Origin: Neelides folsomi | Lineage: Eukaryota > Arthropoda > Collembola > Neelipleona > Neelidae | Assembly: GCA_034687125.1 (NCBI GenBank) | Contig: JAQGBZ010000217.1 | Coordinates: forward strand, 44,224 to 108,223 | Direction: 5' to 3' | DNA: 64,000 nucleotides | Shown: in pieces, positions 13,836 to 32,985 of the stretch | How the letters are laid out: each line of letters starts with the position of its first letter | How positions within the stretch are numbered: the stretch's first letter is position 1 | The notes under the pieces: generated by a model | What the model was told of the DNA's origin: nothing | The model's input: the letters and a program-made list of their open reading frames with translations, nothing else | Databases searched by the model: none | Position numbers and translations under genes: made by a program

Positions 13836-15050
13836 TTATTCGAAATCATATTTTTTGATTTCTGGATACTTGAGTCCAGTGTCGTTGAGAACTGTAACGA
13901 CCCAAGCGTCCTTTGGCAGTTTCCCAGATTTCAGAAGTTTAACACAAGCAGCCACATTCGCCCCGCTGGTGTATCCCAAATAAAGGCCTTCTTTTGTTCC
14001 CAAGAGTCTCTTGTACTTCACGGCCTCTTCGTCGCTCACAGCAATTGCTTCATCAAAGGTGTCATATTTGAAAAGCTCCGGAACAATTCCATAGCCAGAT
14101 CCCTGAAGCAAATGCATTGGCTTCGTCACTGGCTTCTTGTTGATCACTTCGGCCCCTTCCGGTTCGACCACGATACATTTGATTTTTTCATCCTTCTTCT
14201 TCATGAACCTTGAAACGCCCATAAACGTCCCACCTAGTCAGAATAAATCCTCAAGTTACATAAAACAGTGTCAAAAAAGGCTTTCAAGGTAAACCTGTTC
14301 CAATAGTCGCAAGGAATGCGTCGACTCTCCCTTCGGTCTGTCGCCAAATTTCTGGCCCTGTTGTTTCTTCATGGGCGGATGAATTATTGTCATTGTTAAA
14401 CTATGTAATAATAAAAATTCTTTAGCTATAAAATTCTAACCTGTAATTTCATTATATGTTTGTATACTGTATACATTACAATACAGATGCAGATATATGT
14501 ATATTCCAAATATTAGCACACATATTGGTATATGTTAACATTAAATATTATATTACATATAGTGTATAAGATTAACTGAATTACAGATACTTACTTGATT
14601 CACATAATATGCTCCAGTTTCTTTAATGAGTTCCATTGCATGGGATTCTGCAGCTAAAACATCATTTAAAGTGACATTGCCCGGTGAACCTTCGACTTGA
14701 TCCACAAGAACGACATTAGCTCCCAAAGCATTCATCATTGTGGCTCGTTGTGGACTGTTCCCTTTGGACATTGTGACCGTGAAAGGATGACCAAGGACCG
14801 CTGTGACCATTGCTATGCCACAGCCCTGATTTCCACTTGTAACTTCTATGACCTTTTCGCCTGGGCTCAACTTTCCTTCAGCAATTGCTGTCTGAACCAT
14901 GTGGAGAGAAGAGCGATCTTTGATGGAACCTCCAGGGTTCATGAATTCACATTTGGCCAAAATTCTTCCTGGACCGGGCCAAATTCGGTCTAATGCCACA
15001 AGCGGCGTATTTCCCACCAATTCCAACGCACTTGCTTTAATTTCAGCCAT
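13836..15050 (-). CDS. Cysteine synthase / beta-cyanoalanine synthase-like PLP enzyme
   Basis: Three exons on the minus strand, 14595-15050, 14295-14400 and 13836-14233, give 319 aa, the usual length of bacterial CysK-type enzymes. These fold-type II PLP enzymes make cysteine from O-acetylserine and sulfide, or beta-cyanoalanine from cysteine and cyanide. Visible hallmarks are the PLP-lysine motif NPGGSIKDR (Lys44), the TSGNQG loop (71-76) that binds substrate carboxylate, the phosphate-binding loop GTGGT (186-190), and NDTG near the C-terminus. It lacks the heme-binding N-terminus and the regulatory CBS pair of animal cystathionine beta-synthase. The blocks YYVNQFNN and [10 protein letters not shown] are typical of the bacterial/fungal branch. 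Both introns (194 and 61 bp) are normal GT..AG, so the gene is integrated in this genome and not contamination. Which reaction it favours cannot be read from the sequence. Confidence 0.85.
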
Positions 15051-21148: not shown

Positions 21149-23768
21149 ATGCCATTTCCTTCGGATTTCCTCTTTAAGAAGATGTTCACATCTACGGGCG
21201 ACGTGAGGAGGCGGATGAAGAATCATGGGAAGTTCTTGTCAGAGAATACGAGAGACTTGGCAGAAGTGACGCGGCTTCTCTTTGAAAAAGATGGAATCAC
21301 CATCGCAGAAAGACAAAGAATTGTAATTTTATCCAATTTTATTGCTTCCCCACTTTTACTTTCAATTAGACAATTCTCATTAAAATACAACACATGTTAA
21401 GCACGAAGCCGTTGAGAATGTAAAGAAATAAATGATTTAACATAGTACAACACAGTTGTCATATTTCCCGATACACACTAATTTCCCCTTATTAAATTCT
21501 TATAATTTCACACTTTGAATTCATTCAATGATTTATGCAATTTTTTGTAATCCATTGTAATGTTTTTCCCTTGTAGCTGAGCCAGGAAAGCGAGTATGAG
21601 CAGAACATTCTTTTTTACATCCTTATGGCCAGACGCCCTGAAGTTACCAAGAAAGTTTGAACACATTAATTAATAGCTCCAAATTCTTCTTGCTTTATTA
21701 ATAATTCTCTTACTCATATCATAAGGCGTATTTGAATACGCATTCTAATAATAAGTATGACCCAAAGTTCAGTATTAATTAATGTATAATAAAATGTTAC
21801 AAACTAAGCTATTTAATGAAGTGTGCAATAAGCAACATATGGGATATATCGATATATAGGGTGGGGTTTAAATAACTGTTTTTTTTGGTTGAAGACAAAT
21901 ATTTTAATTCCAAACCGATTTATCTCATATTAAGGAATTATTATCTTTGTACATCATATATTAAGTAAATTAACTTTAATTTGCCACTTGAGCTCCATTA
22001 GCTTCGATGCAGCGCTGCAATCTCCCTTCAACAGCTTCACAAGCTCTTTTACACATTGCCACCGAGATTTCTCCAAATGATTGAATTATTTCTGTTCTCA
22101 GCTCCACAAGAGTCGATGAGTTTTTGGAGTAAACTTTATTTTATTTTAATGTATTCCCCATCAAGTGGCATCAATAAAAGATTTTTACCATTGATCATTT
22201 TGTGAGTAAAATTAGCCCCAAAAAATCAGTTATTTAAGCCCCACTCTGTACTATTGTATTTGTTTGTATGGGACAAGTTTTATGGGAGTGGGAGCTTATA
22301 TGGGTTATAGTGCAGAATAAAAGGAATTTGCGAATAAAAGTGATGTTGATTCGTGAAGGTCTTGGAGTCACTGGAGGAGAGCGGAGGTGCAAACTGCCAA
22401 GTAGCCGCATTCCTTCGAAATAAAAACCGAGGGCTAGGCTCCACCGAATCCCGCCATAATTTTTCACTTGGCTTCCACGAACCGGAAAATGAGTCAGAGC
22501 GGCGGAGCATCAGTTCCGATTCTTCAACCAACAACAATGAAGAGGAGGAGGAGAAGCAGACCCAAAATACAAACCCAACCAAATCCAAAAATCACCTAGA
22601 ATTCCTCACATTTGATACAATTGGGGCTCAAAGGCTAACCAAATTGCATCTCTCGAATGTCTCATTTGTGGCCTCAGAGCTCCTCATGGGAATCAAAGAC
22701 TCGCCGCTCGAGTCCATCAAATTGAACTGTGTGGATGTAATTGGAGAATTTAATGGGAAAATTGATCTTCCTCTTCTCACTTACTTCTCTTACCATCAAA
22801 ATGTGAGGGAGAAATGTTATCGGTCTCAACTGAGAAAAAAACTTGGGCTAAAGACACTCGCTGACATTTTATTTTTTATTAAAGTTAAGAGAGGAGAACT
22901 TGAGTTGATACATTTAAAAAAAGCATCAATTTACATCATGGTGGCTTTGGGAGATTGGCGAGCTTTGGAATTCGATCCCAAAATCCCAGAAAAAAGGGAT
23001 TTAATATTGAATTTAAATAATGTGTTTGGGATTGAATTGGGAGAATACACAGAAGAATTTTTAAGTTTGTCACTTCGTGATTGTGAAGTTTTTTGTAGAA
23101 CGAATGGGATTGTATTTAAGAATAATATTCTCAATTATTTGAATTTATATGATGTTGTAATTACGGGTTTGGATGTGAGGAATTTATTGCAATCTGCGAG
23201 AAAATTGAAAACTTTCATTTTATGGCCAAACTTGTTCAATGATTGTAAATTTTTCTCTGTGGATCTTCATCTGGAAGATCTTCCCAAAGGGTTGGAAATC
23301 ATGTCTCTTCGTCTGGTTAATGTTTTATATGAAAATGGGTTAAGTTTGAGGGAAACTGTTTTTGAGTCTCTCACTTTTGACAATTGCAGATTTCCACCCA
23401 ACTTTACAGAAAATTTCATTAATTTGTTCACTGCTAAAAGAATTCACTTTTTGGGTGGATTGTTTAAACCAAATTCTTTCATACTGGAGAACATTGTAAG
23501 ACCGGCTGAATTAACCGAAGAAATTGCTTTTGAATCCTTTGTCTTTGCTGAACCAGTTACAAGGACATTTCTACTCACATTATTTCGAAGTGTAGAGAAC
23601 AAAATGAGAGATTTTTTGAAAAGTTCTCTGTTGGAGGATGATGTTGAGAATTTTTTCCTTAAGAAAAATAGTGAAGGAATGTGGACAGGAGAAGAATTGA
23701 CTGATGAACAAAGAGAACGAATCTGGGATCGATACTTTCAATACAATAAATTCAATTACCTTATATAA
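21149..23768 (+). CDS. Probable CARD plus irregular leucine-rich-repeat protein
   Basis: Proposed exons are 21149-21322, 21577-21654 and 22359-23768 (58, 26 and 469 aa; 553 in total). Residues about 20-110 fit a caspase-recruitment domain: a basic helix 1 (RRMKNHGKFL), then DLAEVTRLLFEKDGITIAER, then NILFYILMARRPEV, and across the second junction KKVLESLEESGG...CQVAAFL. This spacing matches the LLDIL..RGP..F..FL.SL pattern of RAIDD and CED-3 CARDs. A Ser/Glu/Asn-rich linker follows, then about 370 residues of leucine-rich, irregularly repeated units (for example LTKLHLSNVSF, LSLSLRDCEVF and LEIMSLRLVNV). I see no NACHT, NB-ARC or caspase domain. CARDs join CARD partners in apoptosis or immune signalling; LRRs usually sense ligands. 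The second donor (AAA|GTTTGA) is weak and the acceptor tract is poor, so exons 1-2 and the long exon might be separate genes. AATAAA is at 23781-23786. Confidence 0.52.
21857..22248 (-). mobile_element. Decayed Tc1/mariner (IS630-type) element, internally deleted
   Basis: Inverted ends read GTGGGGTTTAAATAACTG on the left (from 21861) and GTGGGGCTTAAATAACTG on the right (reverse complement ending near 22243). The element is flanked by TA (21855-21856 and 22249-22250). On the minus strand about 51 codons ending at the stop 21976-21978 resemble the C-terminal tail of a DDE transposase (CKRACEAVEGRLQRCIEANG). Nearly all of the transposase is missing, so the copy is not autonomous. It lies inside the proposed second intron of the CARD gene. 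Confidence 0.75.
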
Positions 23769-24091: not shown

Positions 24092-25022
24092 ATGGGACTG
24101 TTATTTAGCAGAATTTGGAAACTGTTTGGAAATGAAGGTAATCTACATTTATATTTAGCTCATAATTAACATTTTGGAAATATTGTTTAATCTGTTGTTG
24201 AATTAATATAATTGTTTTTAGAACACAAGATTGTGATATTAGGACTCGACAATGCTGGGAAGACTACAATTCTTTATCAATTCCTTATGAACGAGGTTGT
24301 CCAAACATCTCCAACAATCGGGTCAAATGTGGAGGAAGTCACATGGAAGAATATTCATTTTATCATGTGGGACCTCGGAGGTCAAGCGAGTTTGAGAGCC
24401 AGCTGGGCCACATATTTTGTAAATGTTGAAGTAAGTCAGATGTTTTTGAGTGCTGATAAAAGAGAAAGTTTATCTTATGCTAAATTTTATTTCTTTATAT
24501 TTGCATTAAGATGTTTTGTTTATATTATTATAATGGATTTCATTTATTTATTTTTTGATTAGTTTGTGATTCTTGTCGTTGACTCAACCGACTCTGAGCG
24601 GCTGACAATTATAAAAGAAGAGTTGGAAAAGTTAACAGCTCATGAAGAACTCGCCAATGCTTCAATACTCATCTATGCAAATAAGCAGGATGTGAAAGGA
24701 AGTTTAAGTCCATCGACTATATCTAAAGAGTAAGAAAATAATTAAAAATCATAAATAACAATAACTAATATTAAAAAGTTCTTTTATTGATTTTATGTTC
24801 TTCAATACAATTATTATAAAACTATGCATTCTAAAGGTTTATGTAATATTATGTAATTCAATGCATAAATCAATATTTATATTTTAATTTTAATTTTCTT
24901 TGTTCAGATTGAATTTAACTTCAATTCGGACGAGATATCAAATTCAACCCTGTTGTGCATTGACGGGTGAAGGTCTATACCAAGGATTAGAATGGATTGT
25001 GAGTCTAATAAAGAAAAGATAG
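24092..25022 (+). CDS. Arl5: ADP-ribosylation factor-like protein 5 (small GTPase)
   Basis: Four exons, 24092-24137, 24222-24430, 24563-24729 and 24908-25022, give 178 aa against 179 for human ARL5A. ARL5 is a Golgi-associated Arf-family GTPase that recruits the GARP tethering complex to the trans-Golgi. Gly2 is the N-myristoylation site. The P-loop GLDNAGKT is at 23-30, switch I covers [12 protein letters not shown], the G3 motif WDLGGQ ends at Gln70, and the guanine-specificity motif NKQD lies in exon 3. The final exon carries [15 protein letters not shown], nearly identical to the vertebrate ending. All catalytic residues are intact. All four exons agree with the family alignment, so boundaries are well supported. 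Confidence 0.96.
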
Positions 25023-30171: not shown

Positions 30172-32985
30172 AGTTGCATGTCCATAATCATCCAGATCAA
30201 AGGAATTTGCCACCACAGCGTGGAGACGATAGTTTGTTAAGCCAATGGCTTGAAGACTCTCACGCTGGACATGCTGGGCAAACTCGCCATTCTCGTGGAA
30301 GCCAAAGTAGTCAAAATCTCGAGGGAAGTTTACACGGGAATGAATCTTCCTCTTCAAGATCATCAACAGTTTGGACGGATTCGAGCATTTATACCCCTTC
30401 TGGGAAAGTGAAAAAACAGAGGAATTTCTCTGATTCCTGTTCTTACGGACCGCCACAGCTGAGAGGAATTGGAAGCCAGGAATCGATCCCGTGTGAATTT
30501 GGAGAATGCCAAAGTCAAAGTTTATCGCTGGGATCATCTTTGGATAATTTGCTACTTGTGGACTCTTCGAGCCCCAACTCAAGTCATAGGCTGAATGAAG
30601 ACGTATTTGAAGAGGAACCTCCGCAGATTCCTGCAAAATCGAGACATTTTCTGTTAGCTCAACAAGAACGAAGTCCTTCACCATATGATAATGTGGATGA
30701 TGTGCGGCACAGCTATACTTATAATATGGTCAGATATTTTTTACTTATTTTTTTAAATTAAAATGATGAGGAAAAAAATAAAAGATGATGAAGAAGAGGA
30801 AATAAAATATTAAGATATCGCCCATTATAATTTTTTTATTTATATTTAGGTTTACTCGGAATCAGGTCAAACGCTAGTTGATTTCGACAAGCCGCCTCCA
30901 ATTCCACCTAAAAAGAAGCATAGTCTTATTGCAGCATATGTAGAGTTTTTTGCTAACAATACTCAAACAACAGAAGGGAGCTTTCATCATCATCACTTTC
31001 AAAATCATAATTTCGTGTCAATGGGTGGGATGGAAGGACGGCCGAGACAAAGTTATTCTTATCATCATTTCGCCTCTTTCTCAGCTGGTTCTTCCTCCGT
31101 CTTCCCAGAAGAATCCTCCCCTGAAGAACTTCCCTATGCTCCACTCCACAATCCCCCACCGGCCCTCCCTCCGAAAAAGAAAAGAAGCGGAATTCGACAG
31201 TCCATCAGTGAAGTTGGTCACATGTCCAGTTTCCCTCCACATGACTTTCATTATCCAACTCAATCATCTCATTATTCTCATATTTCACCTTCGCCTTCGT
31301 CCCATGAAGAAACAAGTGTTGTTCCTATTTCAATTCCAACTCCTCCGCCAACCTTCCCGCCGAGTCCAACGCGTGAACCTTCCCCGCCCTCGCCACCGCC
31401 CATCGATGAAACAGAAATGGAACTGATGGTCCTTGACGTCAGCGCCGAACTTGTTATGACCGGAACTGGAGGAAAAGATGGGCCGGAAGTGAAAGGAGGA
31501 GATCCGTTGACTCTTTTAATTTACGCTGCCTCTCCGACCCTCACCGACCCGAAGTTTAAAGAAGTGTTCATCCTCACTTATAGGAATTTCTTAAGGCCTC
31601 TCGATGTCGTCGCTTTGCTCTGGCGGAGATTCGAGTACTTGGAAAAAAGAACAAGTGAGAGGAATAACGTGGTTCATTCAAGAGCAACTTTGGATCTCTA
31701 TGTTGATGTGGTCAATTCCCTCACTCCGATGGATCTCGATGATGAAATGATTGGGAAAGTGCGAGAATCAATTTATCATTTGGTCAATACTGGAGAATTG
31801 CTCGCAGCTCTCAAAGCGAGAAAAGGAATTATTGTGAAATATGAAGTGAGAACGAAACTTCTCAGCCCTAAACCAACGCCTGTTTCACTTGCCATTACTG
31901 TCGAGTAAGTATTATATTATTTTACATTAAATAACATTGTTTAATTAATTTATTAGATTGTTGTGCACTTCTCGAGTACAGTGAAATCATTTTAATTGTT
32001 AAAATATTTTTATAAAGGGCTCAGTCGCTTCTTCAATGGAGTGCTTCAAGTATCGCACAACAAATGACACTTTTGGATTCTGAACTCTTTCGTCAATTGG
32101 AACCAGCCGAGCTTCTCTTATGGGCAAGAGAACAACTCGAAGATGCTTGTCCGGCTCTAAATAATTTCACAGAGCATTTTAATAAAGTTTCTTACTGGTA
32201 AGTTGATTAAATTCCGCTCCAAACCAATCATTGGTGTTCAATATTTAATATTTGGTTCAATATTTAACAGGGCGAGATCAAGGGTTCTTCTTTGCGGGAA
32301 TTCCCGAGAGAGAAACCGGACGATGAAGAAGTTGATCGAAGTGATGCGAAAATTGCGCGAGTACGGGAATTTCAATTCTCTCCTTGCTGTTCTCGCTGCT
32401 TTGGATTCAGCTCCCATCCGACGACTTGGATTTTCTCGACGACTCACTGAGGCTCTCAAACCTCACGCTGCTCTCACTGACTCTTCAGGCTCATTTAGGA
32501 ATTATAGGCAGGCTCTTTCTGAGACAAAGACTCCTTGTATACCTTACATGTAAGTTGGCATTATTATTAATTAATTTAATCTTAATTTCAATAAATATCA
32601 TAGTAAATTTTAATTTCTTAATTTTGATTTTATAGTGGCCTTGTATTACAAGACTTGACATTTGTTCATATCGGAAATGCGGATTTCCTCCAGGATGGTA
32701 AAGTAAATTGGGTGAAACGCTGGCAGCAATGGCTTGTGCTCGAACCTATTAGAAGATTTCATTCTTGGTAATAACACCATTTAAATACGAACAATTAATA
32801 TTAACAATTTAATTAACAATCACCATTTAATATGAACAAGGATTATTAAATTTTTTCACCCTAGCCATTACAACTTTGTTCGCAACGAGTCGCTCCTCGC
32901 TTTCCTCAATAACTTTGATGAATCACTGAATGACGACGAGCTCTGGCAATTGTCGGAGTCGATCAAACCACGAGGAAAGAATTAA
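28812..32985 (+). CDS. C3G: C3G / RAPGEF1, Rap1 guanine-nucleotide exchange factor
   Basis: Nine exons: 28812-28854, 29149-29434, 29585-29747, 29832-30728, 30850-31904, 32018-32197, 32271-32549, 32636-32767 and 32865-32985. They close in phase to 1051 aa. C3G is recruited by Crk adaptors to tyrosine-kinase complexes and loads GTP on Rap1. The helical N-terminal region (about 60-170) matches the conserved N-terminus of human RAPGEF1. The middle is proline-rich with Crk-SH3-type sites: RPPLPPKLKH, PPPIPPKKKH and PPPALPPKKKRSG. It also has a glutamine tract at about residues 265-280. The Ras exchange motif (about 650-790) precedes the CDC25 domain (about 825-1045), which shows SIAQQMTLLDSELF, FTEHFNKVSYW, ALDSAPIRRL, GLVLQDLTFVHIGN and ELWQLSESIKPR. 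The N-terminal exon pair is assigned by phase and is the least certain. Two ATGs upstream in frame could extend the protein. Confidence 0.94.
30130..30176 (+). repeat. C3G: CAG/CAA microsatellite encoding polyglutamine
   Basis: A run of CAG and CAA codons inside C3G exon 4 encodes a nearly pure glutamine tract of about 15 residues, followed by a short His-rich stretch. Codon mixing (CAG with CAA) reduces slippage. The tract lies in the proline-rich linker outside the catalytic region and probably varies in length between individuals. Confidence 0.85.

Follow-up and report, generated by a model that had tools for sequence, protein, structure and literature searches.

The window analysed here is a 64,000-nucleotide stretch of the genome of the collembolan Neelides folsomi (assembly GCA_034687125.1, contig JAQGBZ010000217.1, positions 44,224 to 108,223). 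It contains a gene of three plus-strand exons, all in phase 0 and joined across GT..AG introns, with an open product of 553 aa (Table 1). The product was assigned an N-terminal caspase-recruitment domain (CARD), an acidic linker and a C-terminal leucine-rich repeat (LRR) module, without a nucleotide-binding domain. Exon 3 lay within a stop-to-stop frame of 472 codons, much longer than chance would give: frames in 30 mononucleotide shuffles of the window reached 144 codons at most. An alternative start codon, Met12 at position 21182, lies near the start of the paralog L007 described below (compared by eye).

Candidate exon joins were scored with a CARD profile from which the window sequence had been left out. 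Junction 1 ranked first of 56 candidates (28.1 bits, runner-up 21.5). Junction 2 (21654/22359) ranked first of 117, made up of 116 joins (2 donors, 58 acceptors) and the read-through; its score was 28.1 bits, compared with 25.0 for the runner-up and 21.1 for the read-through to a stop near 21659. The three exons, the frame and the 553-aa product proposed in an earlier sequence-only reading were reproduced as claimed, and its joins were the best-scoring ones. Past junction 2, the residues VLESLEE were aligned with FLDSLQE of RAIDD.

Genome searches were made in the window's own assembly (75.1 Mb, 840 contigs). A search with exon 3 detected three paralogous loci besides itself. At one of these (contig C522, locus L007), joining the upstream exons gave a 620-aa CARD-CARD-LRR protein that also had no nucleotide-binding domain; it shared 27% identity with window exon 3 over query positions 85-469, and the frame was open in each. 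Tail to tail with this CARD-CARD-LRR gene lies a trypsin-like one (L007:2045-2278, 48.1 bits).

The Pfam scan of the 553-aa model gave 0 families at E<=10. A PDB search with the first 109 aa alone matched no CARD, and the weak matches to S100, dystrophin and a nanobody in single-sequence searches were regarded as chance. The window protein did not score above the curated cut-off of CARD (PF00619), 23.9 bits, which is a naming threshold and no structural definition. Homology to accepted CARDs was found through a chain of paralogs. The first 109 aa of the window protein were identical to L007 CARD1 at 29 of 78 positions (37%, 44.7 bits) in an alignment running from exon 1 to nine residues past junction 2, and none of 400 shuffles scored as well. 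L007 CARD1 in turn matched the CARD of a caspase gene (L043, contig C17), again with 0 of 400 shuffles scoring as well. This caspase has an N-terminal CARD in two exons, which passed PF00619 with 33.1 bits. Such a CARD caspase, like the Arf and RasGEF_N genes of the window, fits an animal genome.

A profile of three CARDs (the window CARD and the two of L007) had 11 PDB matches, with RAIDD at the top (E 0.017); the RAIDD segment used in the pairwise and shuffle comparisons came from this match and is not independent of it. The L007 N-terminus scored 14.0 bits against PF00619, below the cut-off. The two L007 CARDs matched CARD (E 0.052) and CARD_2 (PF16739; CARD2, E 0.036) over nearly the full profile, in both cases under the cut-off and outranked by other families that also fell short of theirs. 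CARD_2 was also matched by the caspase CARD (E 0.02) and by the CARD of an Apaf-1-like gene (E 0.003). This Apaf-1-like gene (L035), with a CARD followed by NB-ARC, is separate from the window gene.

Intron 1 of the window gene, in phase 0 between CARD helices 3 and 4, has its counterpart in both CARDs of L007 and in that of the caspase, and the core of helix 4 started equally far from it in all four; in the Apaf-1-like gene, the phase-0 CARD intron lay two or three codons away from the shared position (all distances by eye). Searching all six frames of the genome with PF00619 gave 0 matches, a result that carries no information, since an intron interrupts the CARDs of this genome; the Apaf-1-like CARD, which scored 34.4 bits once spliced, was likewise missed. 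By sequence homology, the N-terminal domain is assigned as a CARD, through a paralog rather than by a direct Pfam match.

Pfam detected no NB-ARC or NACHT in the 553-aa window model or in the scanned stretches of L007. The linker of about 56 aa, which occupies the place of the NACHT or NB-ARC of an NLR, is far too short for either NB-ARC (profile length 248) or NACHT (167). Elsewhere in the genome, NB-ARC gave 19 profile matches (12 marked over cut-off), NACHT four (three over cut-off) and Death eight (seven over cut-off). Since NB-ARC and NACHT were found elsewhere in the genome, their absence from the window gene is no limit of the profiles. The sequence-only claim of a CARD joined to LRRs without NB-ARC or NACHT was supported by the paralog, the homology chain to the caspase CARD, the RAIDD match and the shared intron position.

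The possibility that the window gene is a fragment of the genome's NB-ARC genes was considered and rejected, as the seven compared besides the Apaf-1-like one, L036-L042 (contigs C341, C829, C824, C369, C235 twice and C305), looked unrelated to it by eye. These genes appeared to have a death-domain-like start and a long helical C-terminus (by eye), perhaps TPR-like; the start of L039 matched Death_3 below threshold (E 0.1). The upstream stretches of two caspase-like loci (L044, L045) were similar to the starts of L036-L042, also by eye.

For the C-terminal region, an LRR profile was built from seven modules of six loci, with the module of contig C19 left out. It had 20 PDB matches at E<=10 (best E 0.0061), of which 19 were LRR proteins, judged by the names given or by what is generally known of them, including Tn4-22 and the uncharacterised 4fcg, which we take to be LRR proteins; the remaining match was NurA. 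The window module alone had a single Pfam match, an LRR family at 12.8 bits, under the cut-off of 26.9. The protein of contig C758 (L009) scored 24.8 bits against FNIP, an LRR-like repeat, and so passed its cut-off of 21. The other modules matched sub-threshold LRR families alongside unrelated families. The positions F...W-x-G...F at the C-terminal end were invariant across the seven aligned modules. Recognition by LRR profiles was thus obtained at the level of the family, and at that level the C-terminal 390 aa or so are assigned as an LRR module of a divergent kind.

Homologous LRR modules were found at seven loci: the window, C522, C173, C758 (two tandem copies), C182, C5 and C19. C19 was the least supported (E 2.6e-5, two stops within the match), and C321 (E 0.98) was dropped. 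A CARD-profile scan of the window and eight loci showed significant CARD exons just in the window gene and L007, two of the seven LRR-module loci; as the profile included the window and L007 sequences, their own matches were expected. The five further LRR-module loci had no significant CARD in the scanned stretches, where the flanks of C182, C5 and C19 were as short as about 1.5 kb and exons may have been missed. Apart from these two genes, the best CARD-profile match, at C5 (L020/L024), had E 1.1 and was taken as chance; the two genes are the window gene and L007. C458 was rejected as a CARD locus; it was matched by the L007 N-terminus (E 0.046), yet the best CARD-profile match there had E 2.8.

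In the tree of the seven LRR modules, only the two C758 copies grouped (support 95), and a sister relation of the window and L007 was not resolved (supports 51, 41 and 48). The C758 modules (L009:2272-4957, minus strand) lie behind a signal-peptide-like exon, judged by eye, and were joined to a protein of 831 aa. At C182 (L018:477-1372 and 1450-2760), a trypsin-like last exon (PF00089, 25.0 bits) lies just upstream of the LRR exon in compatible phase, and a trypsin-LRR fusion is possible there. The single gene pictured in the sequence-only reading has the CARD-LRR layout it was given; it does not stand alone, being one of a small family, and its LRR module also occurs without a visible CARD.

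The layout was compared with known systems. PIDD1 consists of LRR-ZU5-UPA-death domain and feeds a CARD partner (RAIDD/caspase-2) without an ATPase. The window protein resembles it in combining LRRs with a death-fold domain and no nucleotide-binding domain, but the order is reversed and PIDD1 has a death domain where the window protein has a CARD. Pfam, which also missed the CARD, found no ZU5, UPA or death domain in the 553 aa, and no stretch is left for them. NOD1, NOD2 and NLRC4 are CARD-type NLRs with C-terminal LRRs. Like the window protein, they begin with a CARD (NOD2 with two, as does L007) and end in LRRs; the window protein differs in its lack of NACHT and its divergent LRR module. 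Apaf-1/Dark (CARD-NB-ARC-WD40) likewise begins with a CARD, and the CARD intron of the Apaf-1-like gene lies near the same place, whereas NB-ARC and WD40 are absent from the window protein. RAIDD (CARD-death domain), whose CARD was the best PDB match of the three-CARD profile, combines it with a death domain and not with LRRs.

In many intracellular death-fold sensors of animals, a STAND ATPase converts recognition into assembly. The layout of the window protein may be unusual among invertebrates, as the sequence-only reading proposed. In a search of open-licence papers, partly seen as excerpts, no CARD-LRR protein without NACHT turned up. The available text of PMC4833078 did not contain the terms NLR, NOD-like or CARD, and that of PMC8195603 refers to PIDD and CARD in different contexts. 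According to the accessible part of PMC11508797, arthropod NLRs have no N-terminal effector domain, and arthropods were for that reason not counted among the phyla in which an inflammasome is considered possible. The portion of PMC2575513 available to us describes an amphioxus LRR-caspase and other hybrid proteins. The LRR-caspase is similar in that LRRs are coupled directly to the apoptosis machinery within one protein; it differs in carrying the caspase domain itself rather than a CARD, and a CARD-LRR layout is not mentioned in that portion.

The leading reading is that the CARD-linker-LRR gene encodes a cytosolic LRR sensor or scaffold that recruits a CARD partner, a function to which we give about an even chance. 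The LRR module would bind a ligand or partner and gather copies of the protein; the CARD would then pair with the CARD of the caspase L043 or of the Apaf-1/Dark-like L035, the probable partner of the caspase. Caspase activation could thereby be promoted or tuned by proximity, as with PIDD1, with no ATPase. Expression, cytosolic location, ligand binding, oligomerisation and caspase recruitment are all inferred here. The caspase/Apaf-1-like circuit is favoured because L007 CARD1 resembles the caspase CARD, and a role as an apoptosis or immune sensor is plausible. More tentatively, and with rather more doubt than belief, the genes may form an arthropod-lineage family free of nucleotide-binding domains, in which a CARD related to that of an initiator caspase was joined to an LRR module that is otherwise seen here with no CARD, giving a one-step, ATPase-free switch from LRR to caspase. 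In an arthropod genome, a CARD-LRR family alongside a CARD caspase and an Apaf-1-like gene would open a further path, independent of an ATPase, by which recognition could lead to the recruitment of a caspase.

The main rival, which we consider unlikely, is a CARD decoy or brake, in which the CARD would cap the caspase or Apaf-1-like CARD and the LRR module would merely anchor or target it. The lack of room for NB-ARC or NACHT leaves no ATPase to drive assembly, and L007 CARD1, after the window CARD, was most like the caspase CARD of the CARDs compared, as expected if the same partner is contested. However, the large conserved LRR module and the two CARDs of L007 look sensor- or scaffold-like, and known CARD decoys are usually CARD-only.

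A CARD adaptor for a non-caspase (NF-kB- or MAVS-like) pathway, with the LRR module as a protein-binding arm, seems still less probable. It is suggested by the match of L007 CARD2 to CARD_2, a family associated with RIG-I/MAVS, but CARD_2 is not discriminating, as the caspase and Apaf-1-like CARDs match it too, and L007 CARD1 is nearest to the caspase CARD.

It is very unlikely that the gene model is wrong, with exons 1 and 2 being pseudo-exons or a short gene of their own, and the LRR exon part of another transcript. Several points weigh on that side and against a sensor or scaffold. The splice sites of intron 2 are weak (donor AAA|gtttga; acceptor gtgaag|GTC, without a pyrimidine tract), an in-frame stop directly follows exon 2, the intron holds a transposon-like remnant, the score margin of junction 2 is modest, and the alignment with L007 extends just nine residues beyond that junction, with two of nine identical. 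Nevertheless, with that modest margin, the sequence-only claim that the CARD is completed through splicing to the long exon agreed with the first rank of junction 2 under the window-free profile, and in L007 the exons that encode the CARDs closely precede the LRR exon, with phases that are compatible. Least probable is a decaying or unexpressed copy whose CARD-LRR arrangement has no present function: the remnant, the weak splice sites and the lack of the second CARD seen in L007 would fit it and speak against a working sensor, but the stop-free frame of 472 codons and the identity to L007 with both frames open argue otherwise.

Table 1. Coordinates of the CARD-LRR gene and its parts in the window
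Feature	Position	Strand	Description
Exon 1	21149..21322	+	Holds the start codon and helices 1-3 of the CARD; frame open, GT donor following 21322; L007 exon 1 homologous
Exon 2	21577..21654	+	Helix 4 of the CARD and the first part of helix 5, LSQESEYEQNILFYILMARRPEVTKK; limits of the helices set by analogy
Intron 2	21655..22358	+	Junction ranked first of 117; weak splice sites; holds inverted-end remnant
Exon 3	22359..23768	+	Remainder of CARD, VLESLEESGGANCQVAAFLRN, acidic low-complexity linker, and LRR module up to the stop codon
Linker	22422..22589	+	Low-complexity, about 56 aa; position that an NB-ARC/NACHT module would hold in an NLR or Apaf-1
LRR module	22590..23765	+	392 aa; homologous modules at 6 other loci of the genome; LRR families in Pfam and PDB

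The element remnant in intron 2 (21855-22250), which we take to be mariner-like, has 34-nt inverted ends (21855-21888 and 22217-22250) that are 85% complementary. The Rfam and tRNA scans of the window gave no matches. Neighbouring genes in the window encode a PLP-dependent enzyme (13839-14237, minus strand), an Arf-family GTPase (24212-24559, plus strand) and a RasGEF_N protein (31000-31908, plus strand).
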